Below, piece by piece: positions 31,701 through 61,700 of a stretch of 64,000 nucleotides of DNA (the first letter of the stretch is position 1; the number at the start of each line of letters is the position of its first letter). Under the pieces are notes generated by a model that was given only the letters and a program-made list of their open reading frames with translations, was not told the DNA's origin and searched no databases. Origin of the DNA: Mimachlamys varia. Lineage: Eukaryota > Mollusca > Bivalvia > Pectinida > Pectinidae. The DNA lies in contig OX392543.1 of the NCBI GenBank assembly GCA_947623455.1, forward strand, positions 17,048,757 to 17,112,756. The letters run 5' to 3'. The position numbers were made by a program, and so were the translations under genes.

Positions 31701-34700
31701 TACCAACTGTGCAAAACCTGGTCAATGGACGTGCCCAGACCCAATCATTCTTTAGTTATCCCAAACAAAAGTTCAGGGGGGATAACTACATGTAGGAAAA
31801 TACTATCGTACAGTACGTGGGACAGGATTCCTTAAGACCAATTCACGAAACCAACGCCAGGTCCAAATGAAAAACCCAGCATGGTCAGAAACATTGAAGT
31901 TGATATCAATAACAAAATGTGAGTATATTTTTTCAATGAATACATTTACAATGAATCTAATGATTTTTGATGAGGTGCATATTGAATAAAGATGAGACAA
32001 AGGTCAAGGTCATTCAGTAAAAAACGGTCAAGGTTGTAACCTCTATAGGTTTGATTTAAAGGCTGGAAGGTTATTCAGATAGGAACAATTTAAAGACTGT
32101 TATAAGCCAATAACTTAGATTGAGAATTAAAAAATATAAGTTAATGGATAAAGAAATTATTTGTCCAAATCAATAAGCTTACTGAATATTCTAAGATTTC
32201 ACTTCTAGAGTGTGGATTGTCATTAAAAACATCTTGCATCAAATGCAGTTGATCAAAAGTCAATCTTATCGCTGCTTCGAATCAACAATCTCTAACTTGT
32301 TGCATTGACTGAAAAATTCAACATTAATGATATTTTGTTTGACAATACCAATTTTATTATTTGTCAAATGCTCATACATGTACCAAATTTTTAGATTTCC
32401 AGTGGACAATAATGTTGATATTGAAATTCAAGGTCAACTGTATTAATCAAAGTAAAAGGTCAAAAGGTCATGGTCAATACTCAATGTCTCATCTTTTTCC
32501 AAGACAATACAGGGATTACAAACACAAACACAGCCCATTATACTCACAGCTCTGACTAAAGGCTTAGGGGGCGACGAATCCTCCGCTCTCGGCTAAAAAG
32601 CAAAAGCCGCAGGAAACCAAAGCATTAAAACAATTGCCATGACAACAGAACAGAATATAGTGTGGCTCAAATCCAAAGCAGTACAGAGATACGCCAGATA
32701 TCGACATTCAACTACAGGAAAATGTCGACTAGGAATCTACTACCACAAAACATGGACAAAAAATCAAGACAAGTGCAAGTTTGAATTATTATTCTACATG
32801 AAAGATGGTATTCATTGGATCTAGATATTAAATTCTGTTTCCTGTTCATTAATTATTTCGTTTTTCGTAAAAAAAAAATTGTCTCCCTTTTTGGTAGCTA
32901 TTGACGTCAATACCATTGTGACACCATTAATTTGCTAAAGAAACTGTGCTTTCAGCATACAGTTTCTCGCATAGTGACGTCCTCTCTTAGCAATATAATG
33001 ACGTTACAATGGAAAAGACATATCTAAACTGAAAAGAGAGGCAACTTTTTGTTTATGAAAAGATTCATTAAGTATGACAATTTTCATGTATTTTAGTGTA
33101 CACCTTGAAATTAATTATGAATCAAATTATGTTTTGTTAAAGACAACACCTATTGATGATTTCTCTATCAAATTTCATGATTAATTTGGCATGAAATTAA
33201 ATATTTTTGAGTGTATTACTGTCAATACATCATATGTAAACAAATAAATACAAAATAATATATATCTGATATACTAACATATGAAGAGATTGATGGAAAA
33301 GAACTAACACCAATTGGATGCAAATACACATGTACACATGGGGCTGGTTGATTTTGGAACAGAAGTACAAAGATTACAAAGTCATCTACTCATGTTTCCC
33401 AAAGTTTTGGAAACCAAAGACAAACTGCTCTTTTCTCATTAATCAACTTGGGTAAATTTGGGTACAAATCGGGTAAAAATCGTGAGGAAAGATAAAGGGA
33501 CAAGTTTTTTCTGTAAGGAATACGCGGATAAAACGATGAAACAGGCAAAAATTACAGTATGCAATGTCATGCATGAATGATGATGATGAATGACATTTTT
33601 GTTTGCGGTATAATTAATTTGTTTGCATGCCGAATGTAGAGCTGCCTGTCTTGCCTTGCTGTTTATAAATGATATACATATATTGCTTAAGTAAGAATTT
33701 TTTATCATCCTATGTTCCAGCTGACTTACGTTTAGCCAGGGGTGGGCAAGGGCTTCATCTATTGTCATTCGTTTGCTGGAAAAAAAAGAAATTACAAATA
33801 AAATAAAAATTTGGAAAACAGCCAATCGAATTCAGTCATGATATCTCCAGAGAATATCAATGAATATATATTTGTTGCTTTTAATTGAATAAATAAACTT
33901 TTTATATTACAAAATATACTAGAGTGATTACTTCCCTCCCCCCCCCCCCCCCCCCCCCCCCCCCGCCTTACATTTGCCATCTTGCTTGTAACAAATTTCA
34001 TTTTCAATTTGTTTTCCTTTTTTTTCAAATCTCCATAACATCTTTCCCTCAATTTAATATCAAATCCCTTTACAATATTACAAAGCCAACATTTTATAGA
34101 GAAATTGTGGCAGTATAACAAAGCTATGATTTATGTCATAGCAAAATTTCTTTTGATTCAATATCACTGTTTTGCAGCTTATTTACGATTAACCTAATAC
34201 CATCAACATTTGTTATGAGAGTTATCTGCTCTTACTTCCTGTCTCTGGCTAGAAGTTTGTTGATGAAGTCGCGAGCATCATCAGAGATGTTATCCCAGAC
34301 ATCATCGCTGAAGTCGTAATCTGAGCGGTTGATATTAGTAAATGTCTCCTGGTCGGTTTCTCCGGCAAAGGGGGAATACCCACTCAGTCTGTTAGTGTAA
34401 GAAAAAACAAAAAACATCATCAATTCTGACAGTAAAAATCAGGAAAATAAATAAGACCATTTTATCTTAATAACACTATCATAATAAATAAAAAATAATG
34501 ACCTAATGACCATTGTAATATGTACTTTGATCTTGATAATTTCTTATATTTTGCCAATCAAAACCTACCTGACAAGATTATTTTTAAATATTTAGCCAAT
34601 CAGACGTTTTGTTACATAGTACTTGTACTGACCACAAGTTAAAATCAACCAATAAGAAATTTTCTTACAAGAATACATTCAAATAATCAGCCAATCAAAT

Positions 34701-37700
34701 CAAATGCTTCGTTACACAAGTACTTACAAGACGTAGGAGACCACTCCGATAGACCACATGTCACTACAGAAGGACACGGGTTCAAAGCTGATGATTTCAG
34801 GGGCACAGAACTCTGCAGTGCCAAACAAGACCTTGACAGATTTGCCCTCTTCCAATTTCTGAGCCAGTCCAAAGTCAATGAGTTTTATGTCACGTGTATC
34901 CTTGGTAACGCACATCACGTTTTCAGGCTGAAATAAAAAAACATCTTATTCATGTTAAAAAATATTTCTATAGGCTATATATGTACATATTTAGCAGATG
35001 CCTAATTTTAGTACATTTTGCGCTTTCCATATTATGCCAATTCATGAATGCAGTTATTCGCAGGGGGTTAATTATGCAAATCACAAAATAATTGTAAGAC
35101 CTAGATTATATAGCCGTCATCTGAAAATAGTTACGAGGGGTTCACTTTTCGCAAAGTTTGATGCATTTGCAAATTTAGAGAAATTGAAACCCTTGCAAAT
35201 TTTAAACAGTAGTTCCGCATCTATTGGAAAAGAACAGGTACATTATTCCTTCCGTACTCTCCAACTCTTTATTTCAGTAATCAATATTTACTGACCTTGA
35301 GGTCAAGATGAATAATATTCTGTTGGTGCATGTGTCTGACACCCTGGCAGATCTGTCTCATATACACAATACAGTCCTCCTCCGTGAACTCGTAGTCCTG
35401 GGCAACGAGGCGATCAAACAGCTCCCCGCCCGACAACCTGGCCAAACAAAAGTAGGTCACAGCTATAAATTTGAAGACAGAAGGAAGTCAAAGCTTCATG
35501 GTTTAGAAAACGACTTATAAAGGCTATGTCTGGTGTCTCGTTCATTAATTTCATTTTTGTGCAGTAAAATTTGTTGAAATCAAATCAATTAGAAGTAGGT
35601 CGAATCTATAAATTGGCAAACAGAAGTCGAGGCCGGCTAAGAATTTGTGAAAAGAAGTAGGTCAAAGCTTAAACTAAAAAGCTAGAGTAGAATAAAATTA
35701 TAAATTGGGAAACAAAAGTAGGTCATTGATGAATAAGCAAACAAAATAAGAACATTGCTATAAATTGGGAAACAAACGTAGGTAAAAACAAAAATTCATT
35801 TTTTCCCCACAAATAATCTATCAAGCTGCAAAGCCTTTTTTTCTCTCTCTGGAATTGAAAATTGTAGACTAGAAATGTCTGTGAGACATAAATGCCCCCG
35901 TCCCCAGCTGGTTACATTACCATGGGGCGGGACGGGACGGGACGGACATTGGTAACACAATTGGTAAACATAACTTTAACTAGATAACCAGTGTGGAAAC
36001 AGTAGACTTACAATTCCAGGATCATGACCATCTCGCCCGTCTGGTCGAAGGCCTCGTGAAGCTGCATCAGCTTTGGATGGTGTAACTGGTTCATGATCTC
36101 AATCTCGTGTCTCACCAGCTCCTTCTCCTGGGGGCGGCATCGGATAAACTTGGCCGCCCAGTTCTTATCAGTGGCCCTCTCTATGGCTCGGTGTACCACA
36201 CCGAAAGCACCTCTGTAAGCAGAGCAAGTTGTACGAACAATTTTTAAATTCATCTTTAAAGTCTATGCATTAATGTCTAGTTCAAGTTCAACAACTTGAT
36301 GGAAAAAGCCTTGATTGTTTAAGATGAGATCTTCATAGGTTTGATATTATATTTTAAGTATACAGCATTAAGCCAAACATTTGTTAACAGTTAAGTTTTG
36401 ATGCATTTTCACAAATATGAGTGATTCTTATGAATCACTTTATCACAACTATCACAACCAAGATTGTAGGTTGTCTCAAAGAGGTTCACAAATTATGACC
36501 AGTGGTATATCTACATGTAGTGCCCTTGCAACAAGCCAAAATCTTTCTCAAATCCCTGGGGAGCAAACAACCTGTGCTGCCATTTCGGCGCTCACAGGTA
36601 GCATTCTATAATTTCTAGTATTGGCCAACCACATATGATTTACAGTAGACCAGAACAAGTGGATTAATTAAGTATCTTGCTTAAAAATACCACACGGTGC
36701 CATGCCGTGACCTGAAGTAGTAACCCCATAGTCATGAGCCCTGGGTCCTATCACTAGACTACCGCACCACGAGATACGTACCTTCCTAACTCCTCACAGA
36801 TGATGTATTTGCCGAGGACGTCACCCTTCATTTTGTCAACATTGACGTTGGTTCCTCTGAAGCTAGAATCGACTGTAAACAAAACAAGATGAAATCAGAA
36901 AACAATTTCAAATACAATATTCAAATATTGCCGCGAACATATTTCAAAACATTTCAAAAAATCTTTGACAAAAAATGTTCATGACCAAGGACTGGATTTT
37001 GTTGTTCTAGTGTATAGTGCTAAACCCCCTTATTGTCACATTCAATTTTCCTTAAAAAAGTGCACACTATATGTGCAGAAAAATTACGTTAAATTGTTAA
37101 TATCGGCATTTTTATTTGTCTATCTATCTGTTTAAACATAGAAGTGGCGCGAAAGCTTATTCCAGAAAAAAATCTTTAAGTGGGACTGGTTTCCTTTCTT
37201 AATGAAAAGAGACTTTTTAGGGGAGAAAATGTCATTACAGGTCAAATGTTATTTGTCATGTTAGGTAAAATATTGAAGTTTTAAAATAAATGAATATTGG
37301 GATGCTGAACAGAAAAGCTATCTTCTTTACAAAATAATGCCAAAATACACTTACACAGATCATCGTAATCAAGCTCTGGAGCCTGATCACGAGTGACCAC
37401 AACATCTGACTCTTCGCCCGGCTGACTGATACCGATGAAGTTCTCTGACAGGATACGGAATTTGTATTCCTTGTGTTCCTCCAGACACTCCACAGTGCAT
37501 TGTGGGTGTTTTGATGTCAGTGCGCGGCGCCAGACACCAGTCTGGAGATCACATTTCTCGATGATATATCCAGTGACCGGGGAACCTCCGTCGTCTTCTG
37601 GTTCATTCCAGGCAAGCTTCACGGAGAACTTGTTGAAGGATATGACTGTGGGTTTACCACTTGGTGGCTGAGGACGATCTATAAATAGATAAATTACGAC

Positions 37701-40700
37701 TCGTTACTACCATAATACGGATTGGCTTGGTTCTGTTTTATGTCCTATTTACAGCTACGGCCTTTAAAGGAAGTACCAGGTCTTTGTGATAAAGGAAAAA
37801 CAGAGTTCCCAGAAACCTACTGACCTATGGCTTGCAGGTGATATAATTATGTATATGCTGCTAGTATTAAGCCCATCCTACCCTAAAACTTTAAATATCG
37901 CAAAGAGATTAAAATACAAGGCTCCTTTGAACTTATGTTACTTTATAATTGGTAGACTCCATGCATATGGTCTTCAATTGAAGGGTTAAGTTAATCTTCT
38001 AATCCATTTCAAACTTACCAACGATCTTGATTGGAATATTGGCTGTGTCACTGCCATGCTTGTTTTTGACGGTGACTGTGTATACACCGCCATCACTTCT
38101 GTCGGAGTCATAGATCATCAGTGATGTGTGTCGTGGTGTCGTCGTGATATCTGTACCACGTCCAGCCTCGATGGTCTCCTTGTCGACCGACCATGTGACT
38201 ACAGGATTAGGTTTGCCGCGGAACTGGACACGTAACATAATGGTGTCTCCCTTACAAATACTCAGGCCGTCCAGGTAGCGGTCAGGCAGGTCAATTATCT
38301 TGGCAGGAACTGGACGTTCAAAAACAGATAGAGGTCAGTATTAATACTTAATCAGAACCTAAGTTAGTACACTTTAAACATGATAAATTCCAAAAAAAAA
38401 ACTTCAATTTTTGTTTTGTGTCTGTATTTCTTAATGGCTCATCAACAATGTCCAATTTAGCTTTTGAAAAGATCATTGTTTTGCAGAATGTTCTTGATGT
38501 CCTTTAGGACAGCAAGTCATATTTCTATATTTTATAGCAATGCTGTCAAATTCAACTTCTTTCATACGCTTGAAATCTTTCACGTTTGAATGATATCTCG
38601 AACTTTTATCTTTTTTAATTTGCATTTTCAAGCTTGCGACACTTAATCTGGAAGTTCCCTTAGACAAAAATTTAATCATTCACTCCTGAAATTTGTGATG
38701 AACTATTCCAACCTTAGAATCGAAAGAGTTCAAAAGTGTCTTCAGGGGAATGACAACAATATAGAAGAGCAATGATGGTGTGACCTACCCAGCACGTCAA
38801 GTTTGGCACGAGTCGTTGCTGATCCACATCTATTTTTGGCATGACACTCGATGTACGATGTCTCCCCCTCCTCCAGATCCTTAACGACCATCATGTGGAC
38901 GTTTCCATCGCTCGAGATCTTGTAGTGACGACCTGCGAACACCTCACGGAAGTTCCTATACCAGGTGACCTCTGGACGTGGGAGACCTGTGACCTCACAG
39001 GTGAACTTGGCCTCGTGACCTTCCAGAACACTAGTGTCCTCGATCTCCTTGGAGAACTTCGGGGCCTCAAGTTCTAAAGGATGAAAAAACATGGCAATTT
39101 AAAAGACAGCTGATCCCTCTCAATACTTTCGGTATTGGGTTCCAATTTTTTCCATATTAAACAAATACAGAGATGAGGAAATTAGAGAAAAAAAAAGCAA
39201 AAATAGATTACTAATCCTAATCTATCAAGATTATGAACTGAAATTTGTCAACTTTTAAATCATTTTTGATTAATCATAAATGTGTATATTATCTTGTATT
39301 GTAAAAACTATGATTTAAAGGTCACGACATCAAAATTGTATTCATACAAATTTTTTGGTTAATCATTCGCAAATTAAAATTCATCTCTGAAAATTTCATA
39401 ATGAACTATTCCAACCAAGATAGGATTCAAATACGTCACTAAGGTGAATGAGTAAATATTTCTGAAGCATAGCAGCTTGTATTTAGAAGTACAGCTTCAA
39501 AGAAGTAGATTTGTCTACATGTACAAAGATTTATATGCACTGCTAATTACGTACTGAAGGATTCGCGGCAGTAGAACGGATCTGTGGCCGGAGATGGCTC
39601 CCCGAGACCCTCCTTGTTAGCTGCTCGCACACGGAACTGATATTGCAATTCTTCGTAAAGATTTTCCACACGATAATGCGTGTCCATGATCGGCTGCTTG
39701 TTGACCGGTAGCCAGGAGAAGCCGGAGATGTCAATCCTTTCCAGGAAGTAGCCAGTAAGAGGTGAGCCTCCATCTGATTCAGGTGGTTGCCAAGACAACT
39801 CGACATATTTCGGTCCGATTTCGATCACCTCTGGGGCATTCAAGATAGCTGAGGGTTTTTCTGGTAGAAAATGAAAACAATGTACAAACTCAGTCATTTT
39901 AAAATATTAAAATGTTTGTTGTGTTTAAGTTTCATTTATGATATTGTTAATCCTACAAATAACAGGAGAATGAACACAAGCACTTGATGTCATTCAAATT
40001 GGTCTAGAAGCGCCTAATGCTTAAAAGACCAAAGATCTATTAAAATAAGAATCTGTTCTTACATATTAAAATTGATTTTTTTTTAAATTTATTTCAAAGA
40101 ATAATAAAAAAAAATATTTGACACATGGTTATATATATAATTATTGATTTTTATTACATTTGATATGAATTAATCCTCAATATTGAAAAAAGAAATTCTC
40201 TGGTTTTCTTTTCTTTTACAACTAAAATACAAAATTTTTGTTGATTTTCTGAAATGGAATAAAGTAAATAAACAACAAACAACACACAAACATGCTTACT
40301 CATGCACTATCAACACAAGATTTTAACACCATAATAATTTTCATACTTACTTCCACTGTAAATTAATAGAAATCATACAGAACACACAAACAAACTAATA
40401 AAAATAATAAAATAAAATAAAAACATGCAACTGAGAGGCAATAACACCAGGTACAAAAGAAAAACAGATTAAATACTTTTAAAAATAAAAAGAAAACAAA
40501 TCTGAAACAGAAGAAAAAAAGTTGAAATATCAAGCCACGTGGATTGTGCACCGGTTATTACAGTGTTGGATTCAGTACACAGTAACACTTAAACATAATC
40601 ACCCCTGAAATTTCATATTGAACTATTCCAGCCTTTGAATTGGAAGAGTTCAAATGTGTCTTCAGGGGTGACCGAGTAACAGCAAAAAGTTTATCATTTA

Positions 40701-43700
40701 TATTCAAAAAGCAATTTCAAAATTATTTGATTTAGAAATCAACAACAGACACCCGTCTTTCTAACCTTTTCCTTTTTTCTTCTGGATCTGCTAAAATTAA
40801 TACTTGTACAAACATTAAAAATAAGATCATGCTGGAATAAAGGAGAAAATTGACAACACTGAAATCTTTGTCGAACATATAACAAAACAACTCGGACAAC
40901 CGCAACAAAACAACAACACCATAACCTTCTAGTAATAGTTACATTATCCAAGCATGCAGTAGAATACAAGTTAACGGAAACAAAATTGTCTCCCCTTATT
41001 ACAAGGGGAGACAATTATTACAATTTATTCCTAACATCAATGTTATCCTGTATCAACAATCTGACTGCTGAATTTTGAAACATATTTCCCATTGAACATT
41101 GTGACTAGTTATAATTTTTTTTTAAATGTTCAAAATTTTTAACATGAATTTGAATTCTCGTCAAAAGTCCTACTACTGGTATCATGTCAGTATATATTAT
41201 TCATAAACTAAAAGTTTCAAATCATTTATCATCTAAAAATTTTTATCATAAATATGTAAACTGTATGTGCCCATGCAATGTTTTAAAATGGTTTTGTCTA
41301 TCCATCCATCCATCTTTATTGTTTTCCTTAAAAAAATGAAGTTAAAATTGCATGCATGACTTGTACACATGCTGACAACAATATACTATTCCTGTGTCAC
41401 ACTATCCCCAAATCATGCTATCCACGAAATACCCGCTATCCCCAAGTCAAGCTTTCCCAAATCATGCTATCCACAAAATACACAATGTCCCCTAGTCATA
41501 CCAACCTTTCCTGCCCTTTAGTTCTACTGGCGTTTTCAGTTCAGCTGGTTTGCTGCTGCCTGCTGCGTTCTCTGCAGACACACGGAAGTAGAATGATTCT
41601 CCGTCGGGGAGACCGCGGATGTGGTGGCTAGTCACCTGACCTGGTAAGCGTGTCACACGCTCCCAATTATCTTCGTCGACGTGGCGACGCTCCACAGTGT
41701 ATCCGGTGATTCCTTCCTTGTCGTACGGAGCGTCCCAGCTCAAGGTCAGCGAGTCCTTGGTTACGTCCTTGACTCTCAGTGCTGTAGGTGGCTCTGGCGG
41801 TTCTATAACAGAACAAACACCATGTAGAAGGTATTCAACTCATTCACCCCTGAAATTTCATAATGAGCTATTCCACTCTTTCAATTGGAAGAGTTCAAAT
41901 GTGTCTTCAGGGGTGAATGAGTTCAATTTCACATGATTTTTTAGAAATATTTTGTACTTTTATTTGTTTACTTTTTATATTGACAAAATAGACCTTTAAT
42001 ATATCTTGTGAAAAAAATAATGAATTTTCTTAATGTTAGAGAAGCAATTATAAACTACCAATTAGTTTTTAGTGTTAATTCACAGGTTTTAAATAAATAT
42101 GCAATAACTAAAGCTAAAAAAAACATGCTAGGACATTGTACAACAATCCAATATCTTAGTTTATTGATATGGATCTGTAAAACCATTCTAATGCTTAAAC
42201 ATGAACTAGATGATAGAACCAACGCTCAATTGGTCTACTAAAAAGTATAATAAACTGTCAAAATGTCCAGTGTAAAAATATCAAAAATAATTTAAAGTCT
42301 CCAAAACTCTTTCAACCAATTAACAGAATAATTTTTTTTTGTCAATTTTTCACCAATAAAAAAGAACATTTTCTCTCAAAGCAAAATATCTTCATTGAGC
42401 ATGAAAATGGCTTGTTGAATACCAAAAATGAGTTCCAAGAATGAAATTTGAATTTTTACTGGACTTAATGGACTTGTTAAGTATATCTTCGGTCGTTTCT
42501 GACCATGTATGTCCTTTAGAAGAAAAAATGTGGAGACATCAAGGTTGGCACTACATGTGGTTCAGAAACACTGATTCTTCGTCATTTTTTCTTCAGAGTT
42601 CATGATGTTCTAGCTCCCTTACATTTTGGTGTCCGTTTCCTTTCTGTGTTGGTTTACATCTCTCGATCTCTCTGTGTTTACATGTTTTTTCCGTTTTTTT
42701 TATCGTCAATATCATCAGAAATTTATGTTAATTCACTCGTTATTAATCTATCCTGTTCAAAATCATTACCGGTTTACTAAATCTAACATCTGGGCCAACA
42801 ACAGTGATTAATATGAGTTAGATAATTTGTTTCATAATTGTTGTAAAATAATTAAAGTTTATATTTTAATATGTTATATTATACTAAATCTCTTTCTATT
42901 ATTTTGTTAGGTATGTGATACTGTAAAATTGGAATTATTTGCGGTGTGGAAATTTTCGCTTAGTTCACTTGGATTAAATCTCCAAGAATATATCCACCAC
43001 ACGAACTGTAACAGTATTATAGGTACACAGTACAAAACAGCATGACTGAAGCACGAAATTTGTCACTTCGCGAACTGTTTTTAGGTTGGGTAAGCAAACA
43101 TTTCCTTTCATAAAAATTCTGATTTTTACAGTACAAGAAATTGACTTTATTAATGAGATAAAATCTTAAATGAAATTATCCTTTGTTGCTTTTGTTCTCT
43201 TTTTCTCTCGAATATATCATAGGACATGCATTAGCAGATTTGCAGTCAATATTATTCCATTATGATGAAACATCCAAGTCTTTTTACTTGATATGTATCT
43301 GAATAAATCATTCATTTACTTCTTTTAAATCTTTTGTTTTCTTTTTTATGTTGTTGTGTAAAATATGACACTGGAACTTCCAAGAAATATAACTAGCTGG
43401 AACTGAGATTTTCCCTTGCTGATAAAAAAACAGTAGTTCGTTCACAAAATCAATCTGTGAATGCTTGTCACATGTCATATTTGTTCTGTTTTCACCTTCT
43501 AAGTTGACTTTAGAACTAACTTCCTATTTTCCCTGTGTTCTAAACAGTTTTACTTATCAGCACTTAGGGTCTGTATTTATGAAACCATTGACTCATGCTC
43601 AAGCCTGAATTTTGTGCTCAAGTCAGCTTTCTTGTTCTGGTTACAAATACATAAACAAATCTTATATTGTCAATGATTGGGTGGGAAACTTTTAAGGGAT

Positions 43701-46700: not shown

Positions 46701-49700
46701 TTTTTAACTGCAATGGTGGATATTTCTAACAAAAGAACTCAGAAGAATTGCATAGCTTATATATTAAATTTTGTTTCCTACAAGAATTTTTTTGTGTGTA
46801 ATTTTCACCAACAAATACTGTTTGAGATTTTTCAAAATATTTGATATATTAAAATGTTTGTGTTTTACATCCTATTAACAGCTAGGGTCAATTAAGAACA
46901 TACCAGGTTTCAGTGGTAGAGGATAGCCTGAGTTTCCTCAGAAAAACCACAGGAATTGTATAATTACTTCTTTATGATCATATAGGAACATATTCGCTAA
47001 TTTCTTATCAATCACTGACAAATCTTCTGAATCAAGGTTAAGAAATATCCACCAGCAGTTGAGTAACTAGAAATTATCCAAACGTTTGATAAAAACAAAA
47101 TAAGACAATCGTTAGAAAACATATTTTAATAGAGTTGACAGAAAAAGTACAATGTTACACCTTGAGATAAGATTGCTTGCTTGGAAAACATCACTAAAGG
47201 GACAAGCATTCTAAGATTTGTCTGAGAGCAGACAATACATGACTGACTGAGAGCAGACGACAGACAACAGTTAACAATACAATCCCTTCAGAAAACCCAC
47301 AGAGGAGGGTTATCTTAACTCCTGCTGCAAACAAAAACTTTCAGAAAATTACAAAATGCTACATTTCAGTAGCCATCCTTTGCAGAAATGAATCAAGAAT
47401 GTCTGTTTGGTTATTGAAAGGAGATGTTCAATAAGTCGAAATATTTTTTATTTTAATCGTCTGATCTCAGTCAGTGAAAGAAAATCTATGAGAAAAAGAA
47501 TTAGGAAAGAAATTATAATAAAAAAATGTCCCTTTGATGTTCCATTTTGAGAATGTCCCGTAATATATTTGACATTTTGAGAATGTCCCTATAATAGAAT
47601 TAACCTTTCGAGCATCTATAAAGATTTATATCTCTATTAAGAAAGTATAATAAAAAATGTTCCTTTGATGTTCCACTTTGAGAATGTCCCTTAAATATAT
47701 CTGACATTTTAAGAATGTCCCTTAAATAAAATTAACCTTTCGAATAATTATAAAGATAGATTGTGCTAATTTTTTCAATTTGTCAACACTTCTAAAAAGC
47801 ATTGCTAAAGCATAGCACATTTATATTAGCGTTTAAGCTGCATTGTCATCTCCGGGTTTGGCAATAGAACTCATTGCTACTGCTAAAATGCTAAATATTA
47901 GCTAACGGTAGCACATTCACACTGCCATAAAATGTCTTATCCCGTGTCATTCATATGACTTTAAAGTTCATTGTCATGTGTAGCTATGGAATAGCCAATC
48001 AAATCTGAGGTTATCACAGTCTTTGTATCACAAAAAGTTCCTCAGGAAATTGATGTATGTCCTTTATTTGTCACAATGGCTGTTTTAGTTTCACATCTCT
48101 AATAAATCACCAAATCAAAAACAATAATTTAATAATTTTCATATATATAATATAACCATAAAGAATTTGAATATATTCATCTTGAAATATTTGGCTATTA
48201 ACAAGCATTTAACCATTGTGACAAATATATTTTGAAAGAGATATTTAAACAAATCATTGTTCGTACTTGAAGAAATCCGGTTTCATTAAGTCAATTATTT
48301 TATCATCTGGAATAATTTTACACAATATCAGGTCTGTGTCCAGCATCCCTGTCACTTGGACCGCCTACTTCTTGGTAAAAGTGCTACGAGCCTGTGCCAT
48401 CGTTGAAAACTTTGATGAAGTCATAGTAGATGACTTAGAAGACTCTGAAGATGACTTCATCGAGGACATCGTAGATGATTTAGAAGCGCTGAAGCTCTTC
48501 TTTGTAGACGATGCAGATGAAGAAGCTGACTTCTCAAATTTGACGTGTTTGGAAGACGTGGACAATGAAGACTTGAAAGAGCTGGCCTTTACTGACGAGT
48601 GACTCTCCTCCTTTATGTCAGCTTTGACTGACTTGACAGTTTGAATATTCATCTTTTTCATGGCCTGTTGGTACACAGAAGAAGCCGCTGAAGACTCACT
48701 CTTGATGGCAGACATGTACTGTCTGCGAGACTTTGAAAAGGCTTCCTCGCTGATCTTAGATTTGTAGGATTTGGTTTCAGTTGGAGGCTCGCTGGATGCT
48801 CTGGTATACCTGTAATGCATATCCATTTCTAGGTCTGTGAGCTCCTCAAGACGCCTCTGGGTAGATGTCTTAGTTGAGGTTTGGGTGGATGTTGCTTCAG
48901 ATTTTCTTGAACTCTCATATTTAGATTTGTGAGAATGTTGTTTCTTCTCTAATCCCTCAAGATACCTCTGTTTTACCAGGGAAGATTTACTGTCCTTTGA
49001 AGTGGCTGTTGACAAAGATGATTGCTTGTGTCGTTCTTGTACCTGCTTTCCGAAACTCTCAATTTCTGCTTTTGAAGTTTCTGCTTTGGCCTGAGCAAGT
49101 CTCAACTGAAGAGCCATGTCCCTGGAGCTAGCACCTCTGTATAAGTCTTCCATACCTTCCACATCAGAATCCCAATATCCACTGTAAACCGGGTAGTAAC
49201 GCCACCATCTATAGGGGCTGTAGTAGGTAGCCCCAGTTCCTGATTCAAGCAAGGCCTGGCTATGATGTACTGCAGAGCGTGACCTAGCAAGAGTGTCTTC
49301 CACAGAGGCTGCGTGTTTGGCCTCAATACGGGACAATAAATTCTTAGTTGTCTGACTCATTTCGCTGGAAGTATGACTGGTCTTCTTCTCACCAAAAGAT
49401 TTGGACACAGACTGTACTTTGCTTTCAGCTAGTTTAGCATCAGTTTCTGCCTTAACTGATTTGACAGTGTGTACTCTCTGAATTGATGCCGAGTCATGTG
49501 TAGTAGAGTAGTCTTTCCTGTAAAGAACAGACATATAATTTCTCCTGCTTTGTTCGAATGATTCGTCATCAATTTCAGATTTTTGTACATGGGACGTTTC
49601 TACAGGTGGCTCACTGGAAGCACGAGAGCATCTCATCTGCATGTCAAGATCCATGGAACGCAGTTCCTCAAGCCTTTCTTGGGCAGAAGCTCTGACAGAA

Positions 49701-52700
49701 GAAAGGGTTTCATACTGTAGTTTTCTCTTAACATCTGCATGAGTCTCATCATGTTTTTGTGTTGCTTTGGTAAGTTTCTCCTTTGAATCCCCATAAATCT
49801 TGGAGTCGTAGGATTTGTCTTTGGCTGCAGTAACCTTAGCTCTTTCTGCCATCTCCCTATCAAAGCGACTGTATTCACTCAATTTGCTGTCATCCTGAGT
49901 GGAGACAAATTTGGCATGGGTCGCGACATCAGCTTCGGATTTCAGTTCATCCTTGATGCCACTATACCTGATATACCTGGCGAGGTGATCCCATCGACTA
50001 TATGGTAGATGGTAAGTGGATCGGATATGACTCAGTTGAGCAGTAGATCTATCTTCAGCTGCCTGTTTTCTAGCATGAAGTCTGGCTCTGAAGTCTCTAG
50101 CTGCAGTTGACGTTTCTGTCTCTACAATCCTGTCCAATACGTCTGTGGATACGCCTGTCTGCTTTGCATCTACAGCTTCTTTGACAGACTTGAGAGTATG
50201 GTATGGTCCAGTCTTTGTCGCGATATCACTTTCTGAGCTGACGTCTTGTCTGTACAATGCAGACATGTACTGCCTTCTCTGTTGTTCAAAGGATTCTTCA
50301 TCAATCTCTGATCGTTGTGCTTTTGACAAGGTGGACTGATAGTGAGCACTAGAGGTACCTAATCTCTTTGCCATCAGTGCTTGTTCCTCAGCCCGAGCAA
50401 GAGCCGAGGCTTTCACAGAGTCGACAGTGTAAAAATCACGCCTCCTAGCTGACGTAAACTTTGATCTATAGGCATCCTCTTGCTGCTGAAGAGTAATGAG
50501 ATATTGTTCTCGTGACTGCTGCAGCAAACTGTCATCATGTGTTCTAGCAGATGTTCGCTTGGACCTTTCTTCGATCTCCCGGTCAAATTTGGTATAATCT
50601 GGCACTTCCCTTGGCTCACTAGATCCTCTCAGTGACCTGGAATCAGACTCATAATGTGTTTTTTCCAACTGATCCTTTAGACCACTGAACCTTGTATAAG
50701 CTGCCAAATGATTCCATCTGTCATAGTTGACATCGTAGGTCGACCTTGGTACGGTGTAATATAGAGATTGTTGTGAAGAGGTTGCAGCATCCATTGCAGA
50801 CTGTCTTGCATGAAGCCTGGCTCTGAATTCCTTAGCAGCACGAGTTGTTTCTGTTTCACCAATGAAGTCAGATGAAGTTGCAGTTTTGCTATCTCTTTCT
50901 TTTGCATCCACTTCCGCTTTTACAGAGTGTAGCGTGTGCCAGTTTGCTCTACGCTGGCTAGCGGCGGTCTCCGTGTCCGTTGTGTAGTCAGTTCTATAGA
51001 GAGCAGACATGTAGTTGGCCCTAGAGTGTTCAAAAGATTGATCATCCATTTCCAACTTGTAGCTCCTTCGAGGTCGTACCTCGGATCTTGGTTCACTTAA
51101 AGCACGTGATTCTCTGAGCTCCCTCATTCTTTCCTCCTCCAGTTTCTCAAGAGCTGCGGCCCTTACAGCCTCAACTGTTTGAATATCTTTCATCCTTCTG
51201 CGTACGTCATACCTGGATTTATACAAGTCTTCCTGTTGTTTGAGTGAAAGGAGATATTGGTTTCTGGCTTCTTGTGAAGACACATCTTCTTGTGTCTTTG
51301 TAGATGTTCGTTGGGATCTCTCTGCTATCTCTCTATCAAATTTGCTGTAGTCGGGAATTTCCCTGGTCTCACTCAGTGATCTGTAGGACCTTACATCATA
51401 ATCATCACCGGTTTCACTCAACTGATCTTTGAGGCCACTGAATTTCGTATAAGCAGCCAGATGATTCCATCTGCTGTAGTCAGAATCATAGGTGGATCTT
51501 GGTTCAGCTACAGCTAATTGAGTTGTGACAACCGAGACATCAGATGCGGCCTGTCTTGCACGAAGCCTGGCTCTGAAATCCTTAGCAGCGCGAGTTGTTT
51601 CCGTTTCACCAATGATGTTAGATGAAGTTGCAAATTTGTCAACTTTCTGTTTGGCGTCCACTTCAGCTTTTACAGACTTCAGCGTGTACCAATTAGCTCT
51701 ACGCTGGCTAGCGGCGGTCTCTGTGTCCGTTGTGTAGTCAGTTCTATAGAGAGCAGACATGTAGTTGGCCCTAGAGTGTTCAAAAGATTGATCATCCATT
51801 TCCAACTTGTAGCTCCTTCGAGGTCGTACCTCGGATCTTGGTTCACTCAAAGCACGTGATTCCCGGAGTTCCTTCATTCTTTCCTCCTCAAGTTTCTCAA
51901 GAGCTGATGCTTTCACAGCCTCAACTGTTTGAATGTCTTTCATCCTTCTGCTTACGTCATATCTGGATTTATACAAGTCTTCCTGTTGTTTTAGTGAAAG
52001 GAGATATTGGTTTCTGGCTTCTTGTAAAGACACGTCTTCTTGTGTTTTTGCAGATGTTCGTTGGGATCTTTCTGCTATCTCTCTATCGAATTTGCTGTAG
52101 TCGGGAATTTCCCTGGTCTCACTAAGTGATCTGTAGGACCTTACATCATAATCGTCACCTGTTTCACTCAACTGGTCTTTGAGGCCACTGAATTTCGTAT
52201 AAGCAGCCAGATGATTCCATCTGCTGTAGTCAGAGTCATAGGTGGACCTTGGTTCAGCTACAGCCAATTGAGTGGTGACAACCGATGCATCAGATGCGGC
52301 CTGTCTTGCACGAAGCCTGGCTCTGAAATCCTTAGCAGCACGAGTTGTTTCTGTTTCACCAATAATGTCGGATGAAGTTGCAAATTTGTCAATTTTCTGT
52401 TTGGCGTCCACTTCAGCTTTTACAGACTTTAGTGTGTACCAGTTCGCTCTACGCTGGCTAGCGGCAGTCTCTGTGTCCGTTGTGTAGTCAGTTCTGTAGA
52501 GAGCAGACATGTAGTTGGCCCTAGAGTGTTCAAAAGTTTGATCATCCATTTCCAGCTTGTAACTTCTGCGAGGTCGTACCTCGGATCTTGGTTCACTCAA
52601 GGCACGTGATGCCCTGAGTTCCCTCATTCGTTCTTCTTCAAGCTTCTCAAGAGCTGCAGCTCGTACAGCTTCCACTGTTTGAATGTTTTTTATTCTTTTG

Positions 52701-55700
52701 TTCATGTCGTACACAGACTCATACAAGTCCTCATGTTGTTTAAGAGTAAGGAGATATTTGTTTCTGGATTCCTGTAAAGACACATCTTCTTGTGTCTTTG
52801 TAGATGTGCGTTGGGATCTTTCTGCTATCTCTCTATCAAATTTGCTGTAATCGGGAATTTCCCTGGTCTCACTAAGTGATCTGTAGGACCTAACATCATA
52901 AGCATCACCGGTTTCACTCAACTGGTCTTTGAGGCCACTGAATTTCGTGTAGGCAGCCAGATGATTCCATCTGCTGTAGTCAGAGTCATAGGTGGATCTT
53001 GGTTCATCTACAGCCAATTGAGTTTTGACAACCGAGACATCAGATGCGGCCTGTCTTGCACGAAGCCTGGCTCTGAAATCCTTAGCAGCACGAGTTGTTT
53101 CCGTTTCACCAATGATGTCAGATGAAGTTGAAAATTTGTCAACTTTCTGTTTGGCGTCCACTTCAGCTTTTACAGATTTCAGCGTGTACCAGTTAGATCT
53201 ACGCTGGCTTCCAGCGGTCTCCGTGTCCGTTGTGTAGTCAGTTCTATAGAGAGCAGACATGTAGTTGGCCCTAGAGTGTTCAAATGATTGATCATCCATT
53301 TCAAGTTTGTAGCTCCTTCGAGGTCGTACCTTGGATCTTGGTCCACTCAAAGCACGTGATTCTCTGAGTTCCCTCATTCTTTCCTCCTCTAGCTTCTCAA
53401 GAGCTGCAGCCTTCACAGAAGCCAAGGTTTGCACCCCTTTCCTCAAGTTAGTGTCGTACTTAGACTTGTATATATCTTCATGTTGTTTCAAAGTTAGAAG
53501 ATACTGATTTCTGGATTCTTTAATGGAGACGTCATCCTCGGTTTTTACAGAAGTGAGCTTCTTTCTTTCAGCCATCTCCTGATCAAATTTGCTATAATCA
53601 GGAAGGTCTCTTGGTTCGCTTGATGCTCTGATTGGCTGCACATCAAACGTCTCACTAGTTTCACTCAGCTGGTCTTTAAGACCACTGAATTTGGTGTACG
53701 CTGCAAGATGATTCCATCTGCTGTAGTCGGAGTCATAAGTAGTACGTGGTTCATCCACTACTATTTTAGAGGTAGGTACCTCTGTCGGAGTCTGTCTGGC
53801 CCGCAGTCTGGCCCTGAAGTCCTTTGCAGCACGGGTTGTTTCAGTTTCGCCAATCATGTATGGTCCAGATGCTAACTTGCCGGTTCTCTGTTTGGCATCA
53901 ACAGCAGCCTGCACTGACTTGAGTGTGTGCCAGTTGTCTCGTCTTTGACTTGAATCTGTTTCAGTATCCGTAGTGTATGCTGTTCTATCTAAGACAGACA
54001 AGTAGTCAGCTCTAGAATGTTCGAATTCTTCATTACTGACATCCAAGTATGCTTTGCGTGTCCTTTTCTGGTCTGTTTGAGGCTCACTTATAGCTCTGTG
54101 CTGACGGATGTCCAGTGCCTTACGTTCTTCCATTCGTTCCTGGGCTGAAGCACGGACACTTCCGACAGTATGAATGACATCTTTCTTCCTATTTATTAAA
54201 TACAAATCGTGTTCCCGTTGGTAAGCGTTAAGTTGTTCTTGCTCATATTGACACTGTGTTTCATTGTCTCGCCTTGCCAGTGAATGCTGCATTCGTTCTG
54301 TCATTTCCTCGTCAAATTTGCTAATGTTGGATTGAATGGCTTCAACTTCTACGCCCTTCTTGCCCACCACAATGTACTGTGCGTCATCAGTGCGTTGGTC
54401 GGACTTGACGTCGGTGTATTGCTTGTAAGCAGTCAGATGGTCCCATCGACTATAAGGTACCTCTCTTGTGGACAGAGCATCCACCATGTCCTGGCTTTGA
54501 CGTAACACGGCAGCAGATCGTGCAAACGATTCTTCAAGAGTGCTTAGATTTTTCGCTCTGAGTTTGGATCTGACATTTTTGGCAGCGAGAGTAGTTTCAG
54601 TGTCCGTCTGGGTGTAAGGTGTGCTGTCAAACCTTACGCTTTTGTGTTTGGCCTCAGCAGCAGCCTTTACTGATTTTAATGTGTGGATCTTATCTTCCCT
54701 GTGAATAGTATCAATAGTAGTATCCACTGGCCGTTCTAGTGCAGACATGTATTTGGCCCTCGATTCCTCGAACCACGAATCGTCCGCTCTCTTATCTGTT
54801 GGTCTCCTCACATCTAAATCCTTTATATTGACTGCCCTCGTTTCACTGAATGATCTGATTCGTTTTTCGTCCTTTCTTGCACCAGCCTCAGCGCGAATCG
54901 AATCCACTGTGTGTATTTTGCCCTTTAACATTTTTTCCGTATCTGTTTTCTCCTTATTTTGCAAAGTTTCCATATATTTCGCTCTTGATTCCGCAAACAC
55001 AGTCTTATCAACAGTGCTTTCCGTTGACTTCTTGCGCAGACTTTCGTCAAATTCAGAAGTGTCAAGTGTTTCATTCGCATACTGGTATCTTATTTTCCGT
55101 TCTCTTGACATAGCCTGTTGGTACATGTCGTCCACATAGGACACGCCAGCTGAATGGTCGTCAACCTTACTGTACCACGTATTGTCTGTATCCGTATTGT
55201 ATTTGAGACCACTGTATTTGTTATACGCGGCGAGATGATTCCATCTGCTGTACATTGAGTCATATTCTGACCTTGAGTCAACTAGAGACTGACTCTCTCT
55301 TGCAGCAATATGGGCTCGCGTGAGTGCTTCCTCGGCAACTGCTTCCTGTCTAGAACGGAGTCTAGATCTGAATCGCCGAACATCTTCAAGAGTTTCTGAC
55401 GCACCAACGGTTTCACGAGGTTCGCTGATAGCCCTGACTCTACGTTTGGCGTTTATGTCAGATTTGACAGATTCAAGCGTGTGTATTGCTTCTCTTCTCG
55501 GGACAACCTCATATACTTCTGTGGGTCGTTCAAGCGCTGTCATATATCTTGCTCTGGAGTTTTCGAACCATTCATCATCATAGGCAAGTTTGTACGCCAT
55601 TTTCGGAACTTGGCTTGTTTGTGGCTCCACAGCTTTCCTTGTTGAGGTAGCTGCCTTGGCCTGGAGTGCGCTTTTCTGAGACCTCAAATCAGCCTCTGCT

Positions 55701-58700
55701 TTAACAGTCTTCAATGTGTGGAATTTCTCTCGTTTGAACTCTGTGTCTCCCAGATCGTGCCTCTTCTCAAGAGCAGCCAAGTATTTTGATCTTGAATCAT
55801 GGAAAGATTTTTCGTCCATGGTGACAACAGGTTTCTTAACGACTTGTTTCACTTCTCTGGGTTCACTTAAAGCCCTGAATGCTACAGTGGTTTCTCGCCG
55901 GCTTATGTCATCCTTTGGTTGTTTTCCCTTTACGTCAATGTACTTATTGAAGGCTGCCATGTGATCCCACCTACTGAAGGAGGTGTCCTCCGATGTAGTC
56001 TCCGTCGCATTTAGCAAAGCTTCACTCTGTTTGGCAGTCACATGAGCCTGTTCAAATGCGACCTGCAACTGTGCAAGCTTTTTGGATCTTAGTCTTGACT
56101 GTGTTTTCTGCAGTTTGGATTCCTCTGCTACTGGAGCTTTGTAACTTTCTCTTGGAGTTTTGGATTTCAGTTCGGCTTTAACAGATTCCAGAGTATGAAT
56201 TTGCATCTTGGATTTAGGCATATCAATTACTTCCTGTGGGGTTGGCCTGTCAAGTGCTCGCATGTAATTGGATCGTGATTTCTCAAACCAATCATCATCA
56301 TTGACGACTGTATATGTCTTCCTGGACACGGATCGCTCAACAGGTTCTACAACTGGTATTGGCTTTTGAACCTCTTTCCTTTGTTGCTTGGCTAATGTTG
56401 ATGCTTGAACGGAAGTTAGAGTGTGGATCTGGGGCTTGATGAAATCAGGTAACTCAAACTTGCGTGGCTCAAACGCTGACAAATAGTTCAGCCTCATTTG
56501 GTTGAACTCTTGTTCATTCATAGCTATTCTCTTCGCTTTATCCAATTTCTTCCTTGGGATTTCTTCAATTTCTTCTGGTGCAGAAATCGGTTTGGAACGT
56601 TTTGGTACCACGTATTCTTCATCCGTGTATATAACTGGCTCCCGTTTTGAAACGACAGCAGCATGAGTTCCGATAGATTCTACCTTCGACATGCTTTCTT
56701 TCATTGCAATTCTAGCCTGTTCTAAAGAATCATCTCGTGGAGTTGGTTTTAACAATTTCTTTTTGACACGTCTTGCTATCGGAGAACTTTCAAACTGAGC
56801 TGGAGGCTCACTGATGGCTCTGGAAGATCTGTCCTTTTCTTTGATGGATTTGTAAACAGAATCAAGAGTGTAAATGTCTTGCCTTTTCTTTGGTGCCACA
56901 TACGTTTCTGTGACCGTAGGTTTCTCCAGGGCAGACATGTAATTTGCCCTTGATTTATCAAACCAATCATCATCGTAAGAAATCTTGTATGTTCTGAAAG
57001 ATTTCCTTTCCGCAGTTGGCTCCTCGACAACTACCTTTTCTCTTGGTTCTGGCATTGGTTTCCACTGTTGTTGACGTTTCAGAGCTGAGGCCTGTACCCC
57101 AGTTAGAGTAAAGATTTTCTCCTTGGCTAATTGCGGTATTTCTACAGCAGGCCGTTTCAATTTAGCGAGGTATTCGAGTCGGTTTTGGTTGAACTCAGCT
57201 TCATTCATGGCAATCCTCTTTGCCTTCTCAGGTCGTTCTTTGGGTACCTGAATCGCTTCTTCCGGTTCATAGACTAGCTTTGTTTTCCTTGGTCTCTCAT
57301 ATTCAACCTCTTTGTATATCGCTGGCTCTCGTTTGGAAAGAACTGCAGCGTGAGTTCCGATAGATTCTACTTTCGACATGCTTTCTTTCATTGCAATTCT
57401 AGCTTGTTCTAAAGAATCATCTCGGGGAGTTGGTTTTGACAATTTCTTCTTGACACGTCTTGCTATCGGAGAACTTTCAAACTGAGCTGGAGGCTCACTG
57501 ATGGCTCTGGAAGATCTGTCCTTTTCTTTGATGGATTTGTAAACAGAATCAAGAGTGTAAATATCTTGCCTTTTCTTTGGTGTCTCATACGTATCTGTGA
57601 CCGTAGGTTTCTCCAACGCAGACATGTAACTCGATCGTGACTTATCAAACCATTCGTCATCAACAGAAATCTTGTATGTTCTGAAAGATTTTCTTTCTGC
57701 AGTTGGCTCCTCGATAACTACCTTTTGTTTAGGTTCTGGCATTGGTTTCCACTGCTGTTGACGTTTCAGAGCTGAAGCCTGTACCCCAGTTAGAGTAAAG
57801 ATTTTTTCCTTGGCTAATTCAGGTATTTCTACAGCAGGCCGTTTCAATTTAGCGAGGTATTCGAGTCGGTTTTGGTTGAACTCAGCTTCATTCATAGCAA
57901 TCCTCTTTGCCTTCTCAGTTTTCTCCTTTGGTACCTGAGTATCTTCCTCTGGTTCATAGACTGGCTTGGCTTTTCTTGGTCTCTCATATTCAACCTCTTT
58001 GTATATCGCTGGCTCTCGTTTGGAAAGGACTGCAGCATGAGTTCCGATAGATTCTACTTTCGACATGCTTTCTTTCATTGCAATTCTAGCCTGTTCTAAA
58101 GAATCGTCTCGTGGAGTTGGTTTTGACAATTTCTTCTTGACACGTCTTGCTATCGGAGAACTTTCAAACTGAGCTGGAGGCTCACTGATGGCTCTGGAAG
58201 ATCTGTCCTTTTCTTTGATGGATTTGTAAACAGAATCAAGGGTGTAAATATCTTGCCTTTTCTTTGGTGTCTCATACGTATCTGTGACCGTAGGTTTCTC
58301 CAAAGCAGACATGTAACTCGATCTTGACTTATCAAACCATTCGTCATCAACAGAAATCTTGTATGTTCTGAAAGATTTCCTTTCCGCAGTTGGCTCCTCG
58401 ACAACTACCTTTTCTTTAGGCAATTCAGGAGCTGCTTTCCACTGCTGTTGACGTTTCAGAGCTGAAGCCTGTACTCCAGTTAGAGTAAAGATTTTCTCCT
58501 TGGCTAATTGCGGTATTTCTACAGCAGGCCGTTTCAATTTAGCGAGGTATTCGAGTCGGTTTTGGTTGAACTCAGCTTCATTCATAGCAATCCTCTTTGC
58601 CTTCTCAGTTTTCTCTTTGGGTACCTGAGTATCCTCCTCTGGTTCATAGACTGGCTTGGCCTTTCTTGGTCTCTCATATTCAACCTCTTTGTATATCGCT

Positions 58701-61700
58701 GGCTCTCGTTTGGAAAGAACTGCAGCATGAGTTCCGATAGATTCTACTTTCGACATGCTTTCTTTCATTGCAATTCTAGCCTGTTCTAAAGAATCATCTC
58801 GGGGAGTTGGTTTTGACAATTTCTTCTTGACACGTCTTGCTATCGGAGAACTTTCAAATTGAGCTGGAGGCTCACTGATGGCTCTGGAAGATCTGTCCTT
58901 TTCTTTGATGGATTTGTAAACAGAATCGAGGGTGTAAATATCCTGTTTTTTCTTTGGTGCTTCATAAACGCCTGTCACCTGAGGTTTCTCCAACGCAGAC
59001 ATGTAACTCGATCGTGACTTATCAAACCACTCGTCATCAACAGAAATCTTGTATGTTCTGAAAGATTTCCTGGATTCAACCGGCTCCTCATCTTTGCTTT
59101 CAACTTTTTCTTTTGTTGGTGGTTTGCGTAGTTGCCTTTTCATAGCAGATGCCTGAATTGAAGCCAAGGTGTGGATTTTCTCATCCTTTTTAAACTCTGG
59201 AATATCTATCTTGGGTTTCTTTTCTATGGCAGACATATACTGTGCCCTGCTCTGTTTGAACTCCTCCTCCATCTTGGCAGTTTTCTTTTCCCTGTCAGGT
59301 CGCTCCCTTGGTTTTTGTTCCACTTCAGCCTCAACTGGAGGCTCGCTGATGGCACGAGTGCGTTTCTTTGGTTCGTCATATGTAGTATCAGCAATTTTTC
59401 TTAAAATGCTTACGTGATCATACTTGCTAGTAACAGCATGTGTTCCTATTGCTTCAATCTTCGACACACTCTCCTTCATTGCGACTCTTGCCTGCGTTAG
59501 CGCATCCTCACTGTAGCGAGGTTGTCTCGACTTTTTAGACTTGAGACGTTTTGTCAATGGAGTTTCGTCCACGGGTGACAGCGGTTCACTACTGGCACGA
59601 CTGTCTCTCGACTTCTTTGCCACTGAATCTTTTACAGACTGGAGAGTGATAATTTCTTCCAGCTTTGGTTTCACAACCGGTTCTGCAGTATAGTCTGGTT
59701 TCTCAAGCGCTGTCATATATCGCGAACGAGACTTTTCATACCAATCATCGTCGTAGGCAAGTTTAAATGCCTTGCTTGGCTTTCTTGGTTCTATATCAGC
59801 TGGAGGCTCACTAATAGCACGTGACTGTTTGACCTCGCGAGATTTGGCTGCTTCGCGGGCTTCAGTAGATGCTTTTACAGAAGCCAATGTATGTATCTTT
59901 TCTTTCTTAAGACTCAAATCCACCGAGCTTTCTTCGCGACGGCGTAGTGCAGACATATATTTTGTTCTCTCTTTCTCAAAGTCATCCTCCAATGTGGTGA
60001 TTTTCTTAGCCTTCTCCATTAACTTCGCTCTTTGTTCGTCAGCATACTCGTCAACAGGTGGCTCACTGACAGCACGAGAACGTTTCTCTTCCGTGTGTGC
60101 TAGGCCCTTGTATTTATTAAATGCACCAAGATGATCCCATTTTGTGCCTACTACTCCGTGCGTTCCAATAGTCTCAACCTTAGACAATGTTTCTTTCATA
60201 GCTGATCTGGCACTTTCAAACTCCAATCCAGCATATGGGGTCTGTTTTGATCGCAGTTTTGTTCGGAGACGCTTTGAAACAACTTGCTCCATAACTGGCT
60301 CAGGAGGCTCGCTCGTTGATCTGCTCTGCTTTTTCTTGATGTCAGCTTGAATAGATGCTAAAGTGAAATACCCTTCCGTCTTCACGGGTTCGTCCTCAAC
60401 AGGCGCACGTTTTGGTTTGTCTAGTGCAGCAAGATATCTGGACCTTTCTTTGTTGAAATACTCTTCTTCAAAATTGACTTTCTTTTGTTTTTCAACTACT
60501 TCCTGTCTGGCCTTTTCAACTGGTGGTTCACTGATGGCTCTTGAAGGTTTAACAATTTCAACACCTCTACGTTTGACAACAGCTTTCACGGAATCAACTG
60601 TGTGCATTGGTTCAGCATAACGTGTTGTATCCTCTTCTTTCTTTGTCGACAGCACAGAAATGTATTCGGAGCGTGCCTCATCAAACCATTTGGTGTCTTG
60701 TGGCATCCGTCGAGTTCGGGAAACAGAGACCGAATCAACTGTCTCTTCAACAGGAGGTTCGCTGATGGCCCTGCTCTTCTTTGCTTCCGTAGCGGCTCTC
60801 ACTGACTGCACTGTGTAAATATCCTCCGACTTGCCTACAATGCAAGATTCGGAACATGAGTGAACTGAATATTGAGTATCATGGACCAAGAGTTCAGAAA
60901 TGAGTCATTTCATTTTACTTCATCTGTATCAGATAGAAGTCGTCTGTGCCGTGGATCAAGAGGATTTGGGTTTCATCCAACATGAAGAGGATCCACAGAG
61001 GTGAAAATTCCACGCAGTTCTCGTCAAGAGAAGAGGTTGTTTGGTAGGTGCATTCCTGGACAAAGGTATATAGGGGATTGAAGTGTAAGGAGAAATCCAA
61101 CAAGAAGAACAGGTCTATCAATAGAGGTATCCACCTCCATGTTTGCTAAACCTCTGAAGAAGGAAGGAAATTGTCTTTTGGAATCGGAATAAAACATGCA
61201 TGGTTTGAAGACGTTCCATGGTTCATACGGGCAGGTTTACGATGTCTGGGGGTATCCACTGACGGAGGATTTCATCACAGGTTCAATACACACGGAATCC
61301 AAGGTCCAGGATACAGATTTACCCAGACCGAGGGTTATGAGAAATGGTGTGTAGGTCACAGTACATTCTGAGAGGATATTTTCATTCCAAGTTTGCATTC
61401 CATTGATAAAAATATTCAGAGGAGTATGGTGGATTCACGCAGAGAAAGATGTATGGATGATTTTACATATACAAATAACATCAGGTCCACAAGTGTTCGG
61501 ATAACAATGAAGGTGATGGAATAAAGGCAACAAGTCATATTGGAGTGAATAACTTTATTTGTTCTTCTATAAACTTTGGAGATGGAGGTTTCAGTCAATG
61601 ATTTATTTAAGTACTACTAACGAATGGCTGGTTATTCGTGCCAGGGCGATGTTTTCACTATTTCACAGTAAATGTTATATTACGATTGCAAAAATAAGCC

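Follow-up and report, generated by a model that had tools for sequence, protein, structure and literature searches.

A giant exon, in all likelihood an alternative last exon, encodes a repeat without significant match in the searched libraries in a titin/twitchin-family gene of Mimachlamys varia

We analysed a window of 64,000 nucleotides from the bivalve Mimachlamys varia (assembly GCA_947623455.1, contig OX392543.1, positions 17,048,757 to 17,112,756 of the forward strand), which carries a giant exon within what appears to be a titin/twitchin-family gene. All coordinates below are positions in this window. A single open reading frame (ORF) of at least 400 residues is present; it runs from stop to stop over 48365..60904 on the reverse strand and covers 4,179 residues. 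The likely start of the exon is an AG acceptor at 60834, and an alternative in-phase AG would place it at 60864. The exon (48365..60834, reverse strand, 12,470 bp), which very probably is an alternative terminal one, encodes 16 super-units of a repeat plus a partial 17th, and its predicted product is a protein of 479 kDa with an isoelectric point of 9.3. The initial annotation of this DNA, made from the sequence alone, had placed an exon of 4155 stop-free codons at the same coordinates; recomputing the ORF gave 4,156 residues, followed by a TAG.

Pfam searches on ten pieces of the window detected FN3 domains at 63.8, 63.3, 62.7, 41.6, 39.7 and 37.5 kb, I-set Ig domains at 38.9 and 38.2 kb and protein kinase segments at 35.4 and 34.8 kb. 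Thirteen exons between 63427 and 33730 join into a single open protein of 983 residues. All on the reverse strand, they comprise the Pfam-supported exons FN3b (63122..63427) and FN3c (62533..62838) upstream of the giant exon and, downstream of it, FN3d (41506..41802), FN3e (39555..39860), Ig1 (38789..39073), Ig2 (38019..38309) and FN3f (37355..37678), the last of which immediately precedes the six exons of the kinase domain (33730..36872). Every one of the seven FN3/Ig exons is in phase 1 at both ends. Further exons follow the kinase (9298..30760, reverse strand); matched by tblastn at >45% identity, they are co-linear with a relative, P0006, to near the C-terminus of the latter.

Judging from its sequence, the kinase looks active, since it keeps the ATP-site lysine and the HLDLKPEN and DFG motifs. 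Its top PDB match is twitchin (1kob, Aplysia twitchin, 341 bits), followed by other twitchin entries (313), MYLK4 (293), DAPK3 (263) and titin (251). The gene thereby resembles molluscan twitchin in its FN3/Ig/kinase architecture and in having twitchin as its closest solved kinase, but it differs from it by the many substitutions visible in the kinase alignment. The order Ig-Ig-FN3-kinase, with a further run of exons behind it, brings to mind the A168-A170-kinase-M region of titin. Residues 200-983 of the joined protein were compared with a database of 5.8 billion proteins, in which 774 of the 7,992 proteins scored had E <= 1e-20; the best 120 of these 774 served as kinase-region relatives. 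Among the matches listed, the best score was that of a Diadema setosum twitchin-like protein (39% identity over 98%), and the highest identities were reached by P0006 (76% over 39%) and, in Pomacea canaliculata, by a 'titin homolog isoform X1' with 65% over 55%; they point to a mollusc as the likely origin of the gene. Membership of the gene in the titin/twitchin family, with FN3, Ig and an MLCK-like kinase, is supported by these comparisons, in agreement with the initial annotation, which had described a titin-family kinase gene with flanking FN3 exons.

A motif map and a sequence profile define the basic unit of the repeat as a module of ~67 residues, made of helix A (D-D-x-x-F-x-x-S-R-x-x-Y-M-x-A-L), a variable linker, helix B (I-H-T-L-x-S-V-K-A) and then, often, the motif R-A-x-S-E-P-P. 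The profile, built from 25 copies, matches 36 stretches of the exon, corresponding to 34 modules, an N-terminal half module and a chance match (-1.4 bits) that was discarded. Three of the 34 modules, at residues 2200, 3671 and 3942, are weak or partial; R16, Y19 and T41 are invariant across the 31 others. Two modules, a basic segment and the sequence SRWNHLAAY or a degenerate form of it make up a super-unit. Anchored on the RWxHL-type motif, degenerate versions included, 16 super-units span 49154..60832 (reverse strand), with opening residues that correspond to the second half of a module. The count of 16 and the motif list of the initial annotation both hold, but the unit as given there is really a pair of modules with the basic/SRWNHLAAY segment. 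Super-units have a period of 225-273 residues (mean 244, 16 intervals), and the modules within them start 73-81 residues apart (78 +/- 2) in 14 of 17 pairs, the measurement leaving out the three whose first module is weak. The array is followed by a partial 17th unit of two modules, the first of them weak, and by a Ser-rich C-terminal tail (together 48368..49153, reverse strand) that ends with STMAQARSTFTKK.

The basic segment reads DFRARLRARQ in several later super-units, and SRWNHLAAY is degenerate in units 3-6. SRWNHLAAY might have been a further, third helix A, an idea that was considered and rejected: one of the 16 segments passes the HMMER inclusion threshold (E 0.0048), the 15 others have E values of 0.055 or worse, and the second profile-profile alignment had a probability of 3.4%. 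A six-frame scan of the window, on pieces of at least 12 residues, detected no module copies outside the exon, the sole other match having E 0.53. Tandem Repeats Finder reported no array in the exon, its maximum period of 500 bp being shorter than the ~730-bp unit.

On the sequence evidence, this exon encodes a protein under selection. The ratio of non-synonymous to synonymous substitution rates (dN/dS) between super-units is 0.09-0.30 in 10 of the 17 pairs compared, namely those with dS <1; in the remaining seven, dS is >2 or undefined. Recent super-unit copies differ chiefly at silent sites. The younger copies are units 3-6 and 11-14, whose nucleotide identities are 75-96% in the pairs compared. 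In 300 shuffles the RxxSEP motif appeared at most twice, with a mean of 0.17, whereas the exon contains 21 copies; this count and the dN/dS values together place the repeat array beyond chance. With a codon model whose coding set was the first 9 kb of the exon and whose non-coding set was 47900-42001, log-odds are positive in all blocks tested from 51832 to the stop.

The repeat had been flagged in the initial annotation as unlike PEVK, Ig, FN3, KSP or spectrin sequences, and our searches bear this out. Neither Pfam nor the PDB contains a significant match to the repeat, and no Ig, FN3, spectrin or other Pfam domain scores above its cut-off in the exon. One search gave a single family, UPF0227, which stayed under its cut-off (E 0.01) and was discarded, and single units gave six weak families, each in at most three of the 16 units, with a best E of 0.0082. 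The signature motifs of KSP and Xin, and the SDxxYK or WLKGIGW-type motifs of nebulin, have no matches in the exon. A PEVK identity was rejected, with P+E+V+K amounting to 29.5% overall and to at most 50 per 100 residues. Rfam gave no match in the window.

The protein database was searched twice for the repeat; the first search had no significant match among the 1,765 candidates with the most shared words (proteins of ~2,298-7,313 residues), nor did the second among 3,934 candidates (~137-437 residues). A much longer annotated titin carrying such a tail could lie beyond these protein lengths. The database does contain molluscan relatives of the adjoining kinase region, yet it yielded no repeat match, and with the module profile none of the best 120 of the 774 kinase-region relatives passed inclusion (best E 0.027). 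The profile of the unit matched no described domain family within the searched sets. Six peptide strings from the exon were absent from the 5.39 million papers searched, and the literature searches made located no description of the repeat either. No such repeat is mentioned in the available excerpts of a survey that includes oyster and octopus (PMC12198301) or of a review on catch muscle (PMC12040844). By sequence, the repeat is therefore undescribed in the libraries searched.

Is the exon internal, or does it end the protein? Codon log-odds are +0.43 and +0.48 in the final two 150-nt blocks before the TAG (48365..48367, reverse strand) and negative in all three frames of the 11 blocks after it, 3 of which are independent, those beyond 47900 overlapping the non-coding training stretch. 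No frame codes past the TAG, and a frame error faking the stop was rejected on that ground. The exon contains 561 GTs, 140 of them in phase 1, and none of the latter scores positive beyond 48699. Because FN3c ends and FN3d begins in phase 1, the flanking exons can be spliced to each other with the reading frame kept and the giant exon left out. The twitchin-like protein P0009 of Lingula anatina is co-linear with the FN3b-c-d-e-Ig1 segment (40% identity, 503 columns) and has no insert at this junction. Matches were obtained for 35 of the 120 listed relatives, and 21 of these 35 cross the FN3c-FN3d junction; many such alignments are among repetitive FN3 arrays, and we therefore relied on Lingula. 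Within the exon, the first in-frame ATG is at 60706 and module homology starts upstream of it, so that an upstream exon is needed. Because coding ends at the TAG, the final part of the exon is devoid of a good in-phase donor and FN3c can be joined to FN3d, we consider it highly probable that the giant exon is an alternative last exon encoding a disordered repeat tail. Splicing of FN3c (62838-62533) to 60834 would give a protein ending at the TAG and devoid of FN3d, FN3e, the Ig-Ig-FN3-kinase block and all that follows, whereas splicing of FN3c to FN3d (41802) would give the kinase isoform. While these two in-frame routes and the end of coding are read from the sequence, we infer the expression of the giant-tail isoform.

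In place of a terminal exon, the initial annotation had suggested a spring or scaffold region lying between FN3 exons, with a possible tie to mollusc catch or obliquely striated muscle. An internal position of this kind is at odds with the end of coding at the TAG, the direct joining of the FN3 neighbours and a P+E+V+K content of 29%. In such an arrangement the exon would be a cassette of the kinase isoform, forming an extensible or scaffold segment. Phase-1 GTs at 49155 (score 4.6) and 48699 (2.5) could serve as donors toward the phase-1 acceptor of FN3d. Use of either one, however, would turn at least 110 open codons with coding signal into intron, together with a B motif, IQTVKSVKA, that starts at 48646, past the last positive-scoring phase-1 donor, and the Lingula relative has no insert at the site. 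We regard a cassette as quite improbable.

An arrangement of two genes, of which the first would end in the giant exon and the second would start from its own promoter in the 6.5 kb before FN3d, also appears improbable. In its favour, P0002 and P0006, two of the relatives, each have a record of their own as proteins starting just before the kinase, and vertebrate titin is described to have an internal promoter, that of Cronos (PMC4720518). The models of P0002 and P0006 may nevertheless be truncated, the phase-1 acceptor of FN3d fits FN3c, and Lingula carries both parts in one protein. A second promoter would in any case be compatible with alternative termination.

Some points weigh against the alternative last exon. 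Exon borders were picked by eye so as to keep the frame. The splice-site matrix was not a fitted one, and a donor that we accept in this gene, that at 39554, has a score of just -1.4 with it, so that a weak donor might lie inside the giant exon. A possible polyadenylation signal, AATAAA (48063..48068, reverse strand), is located 297 nt past the stop, with a T/TG-rich stretch after it; it is weak evidence for a terminal exon, there being 11 AATAAA/ATTAAA in 4 kb.

A precedent for the alternative last exon is found in vertebrate titin. The novex-3 exon is described as very large, with its own stop, and as skipped in the main isoforms, its inclusion yielding a protein that is shorter and has a tail of its own (PMC11178842). 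A counterpart that starts from an internal promoter is Cronos (PMC4720518). The Mimachlamys exon is likewise large, has its own stop and can be skipped in frame, as far as its sequence indicates. Novex-3 is set apart by its described position in the gene, since it keeps just the N-terminal region, unlike the present exon, which is situated among FN3 domains before the kinase block. By analogy, the latter shares the logic of novex-3 at another gene position, with an undescribed repeat. By its size alone the exon would not stand out in this family, as the largest human titin exon is reported at 17,106 bp (PMC12198301) and the largest projectin exon is reported to hold about half of the core domains (PMC3835035). 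The excerpted twitchin literature contains no such tail (PMC5963113, PMC7589332, PMC12040844).

The predicted tail is probably a basic, nearly Cys-free, disordered chain. It has 2 Cys in 4,156 residues, Ser is its commonest residue, and its mean hydropathy of 0.385 falls below the charge-hydropathy boundary of 0.422, which predicts disorder. AlphaFold models of one super-unit (15 of the 16 units as alignment rows) and of one module (31 rows) had predicted local distance difference test (pLDDT) values of 67.5 and 74.1 and predicted template modelling (pTM) scores of 0.22 and 0.30, respectively, a low confidence that could also stem from shallow alignments with all rows from this exon. The models show A and B as individual helices and a long one on the basic segment, with no confident packing or fold. 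They agree better with a flexible chain that carries short helices for docking and would be disordered in the cell than with a folded domain. Long, charged and probably disordered stretches of titin-family proteins are also known as the PEVK springs of titin and projectin, from which the tail is distinguished by its P+E+V+K content, its ordered conserved motifs and the prevalence of Ser. The nebulin super-repeat is near 245 residues, and the present array resembles nebulin as a long series of short helices in super-units of about that length; it differs from it in the absence of the nebulin motifs.

Two kinds of putative sites stand out in the tail. RxxSxP sites, which match the mode-1 ligand consensus of 14-3-3 proteins (RXXSXP, PMC4482139), number 23 against 2.6 in shuffles, and 21 of the 23 are RxxSEP. 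Exact DFRxxL motifs number 5 against 0.03; in MLCK, this motif is described to bind F-actin (PMC3317649). The 14-3-3 sites of class IIa HDACs read RKTxSEPN. They have the same RxxSEP core, but 21 copies are found here in one exon of a muscle gene. It is possible, and we propose it tentatively, that the RxxSEP sites point to a phospho-regulated multivalent tether. Against the tail being a kinase substrate in general, plain RxxS/T sites number 53, fewer than the 71 in shuffles, and the enrichment is therefore limited to the specific RAxSEP motif; many modules lack that motif, and copying alone could have multiplied it.

In the mechanism that we envisage, the FN3 array would hold the protein on the thick filament, and the 34 modules would offer many weak and similar docking helices to a repeating partner, which might be another filament or a protein gathered in many copies. 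Basophilic kinases such as PKA or CaMK would phosphorylate the RAxS sites, and 14-3-3 binding or the added charge would then release or rewire the contacts. We infer the anchoring, the partner and the phospho-control alike. Phosphorylation of mollusc twitchin by PKA is described to end catch, the dephosphorylated form making a complex with actin and myosin (PMC7589332); this control of catch renders a phospho-tether plausible by analogy. Expression of titin and twitchin is reported to differ between the fast and catch muscles of scallop (PMC5963113). Taken as a whole, an alternative last exon encoding a phospho-regulated, multivalent tether is the explanation that we somewhat favour.

A narrower form of this explanation, overlapping with it, would have the later super-units bind actin through their basic helix while the FN3 part sits on myosin, with phosphorylation loosening the link. 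The DFRxxL motifs, a mean unit length of 244 residues near that of the nebulin super-repeat and the complex of dephosphorylated twitchin with actin and myosin are in keeping with such a thin-filament tether. Conversely, the exact DFRxxL motif is confined to units 10-13 and 15, units 11-13 being closely similar copies, unit length varies from 225 to 273 residues, and nebulin SDxxYK motifs are missing from the exon; we consider this form rather unlikely. The most specific proposal, in our view decidedly unlikely, is that of a lineage-specific, 34-module, phospho-switchable tether made by alternative termination, with its FN3 domains on the thick filament and its super-units on the thin filament or on a 14-3-3-type cross-linker, which would provide molluscan muscle with a tunable passive link.

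If the favoured explanation is true, alternation between a form with the kinase and one with a giant alternative tail would extend to titin-family genes outside vertebrates, and a repeat not described in the searched libraries would be added to the family. The RAxSEPP array predicts multi-site phosphorylation by basophilic kinases, and possibly 14-3-3 docking, in a muscle filament protein; this prediction can be checked against phosphoproteomes of molluscan muscle.

Other features of the window were also recorded. A 132-bp near-duplicate (47507-47757, 1.9 copies) closely follows the giant exon on its downstream side, and a run of 31 C (33934-33964; G on the coding strand) lies within the intron preceding the last kinase exon. 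The post-kinase exon 30760-30539, matched by P0006, is abutted by a 22-bp minisatellite (30745-31122, 17 copies) that is open in several frames, with ORFs of 100-206 residues. Lastly, a dispersed 25-base pattern, possibly a miniature inverted-repeat transposable element, occurs eight times on both strands with at most 3 mismatches (0 expected), at positions 411, 12623, 16633, 22342, 25200, 39388, 40605 and 41850.

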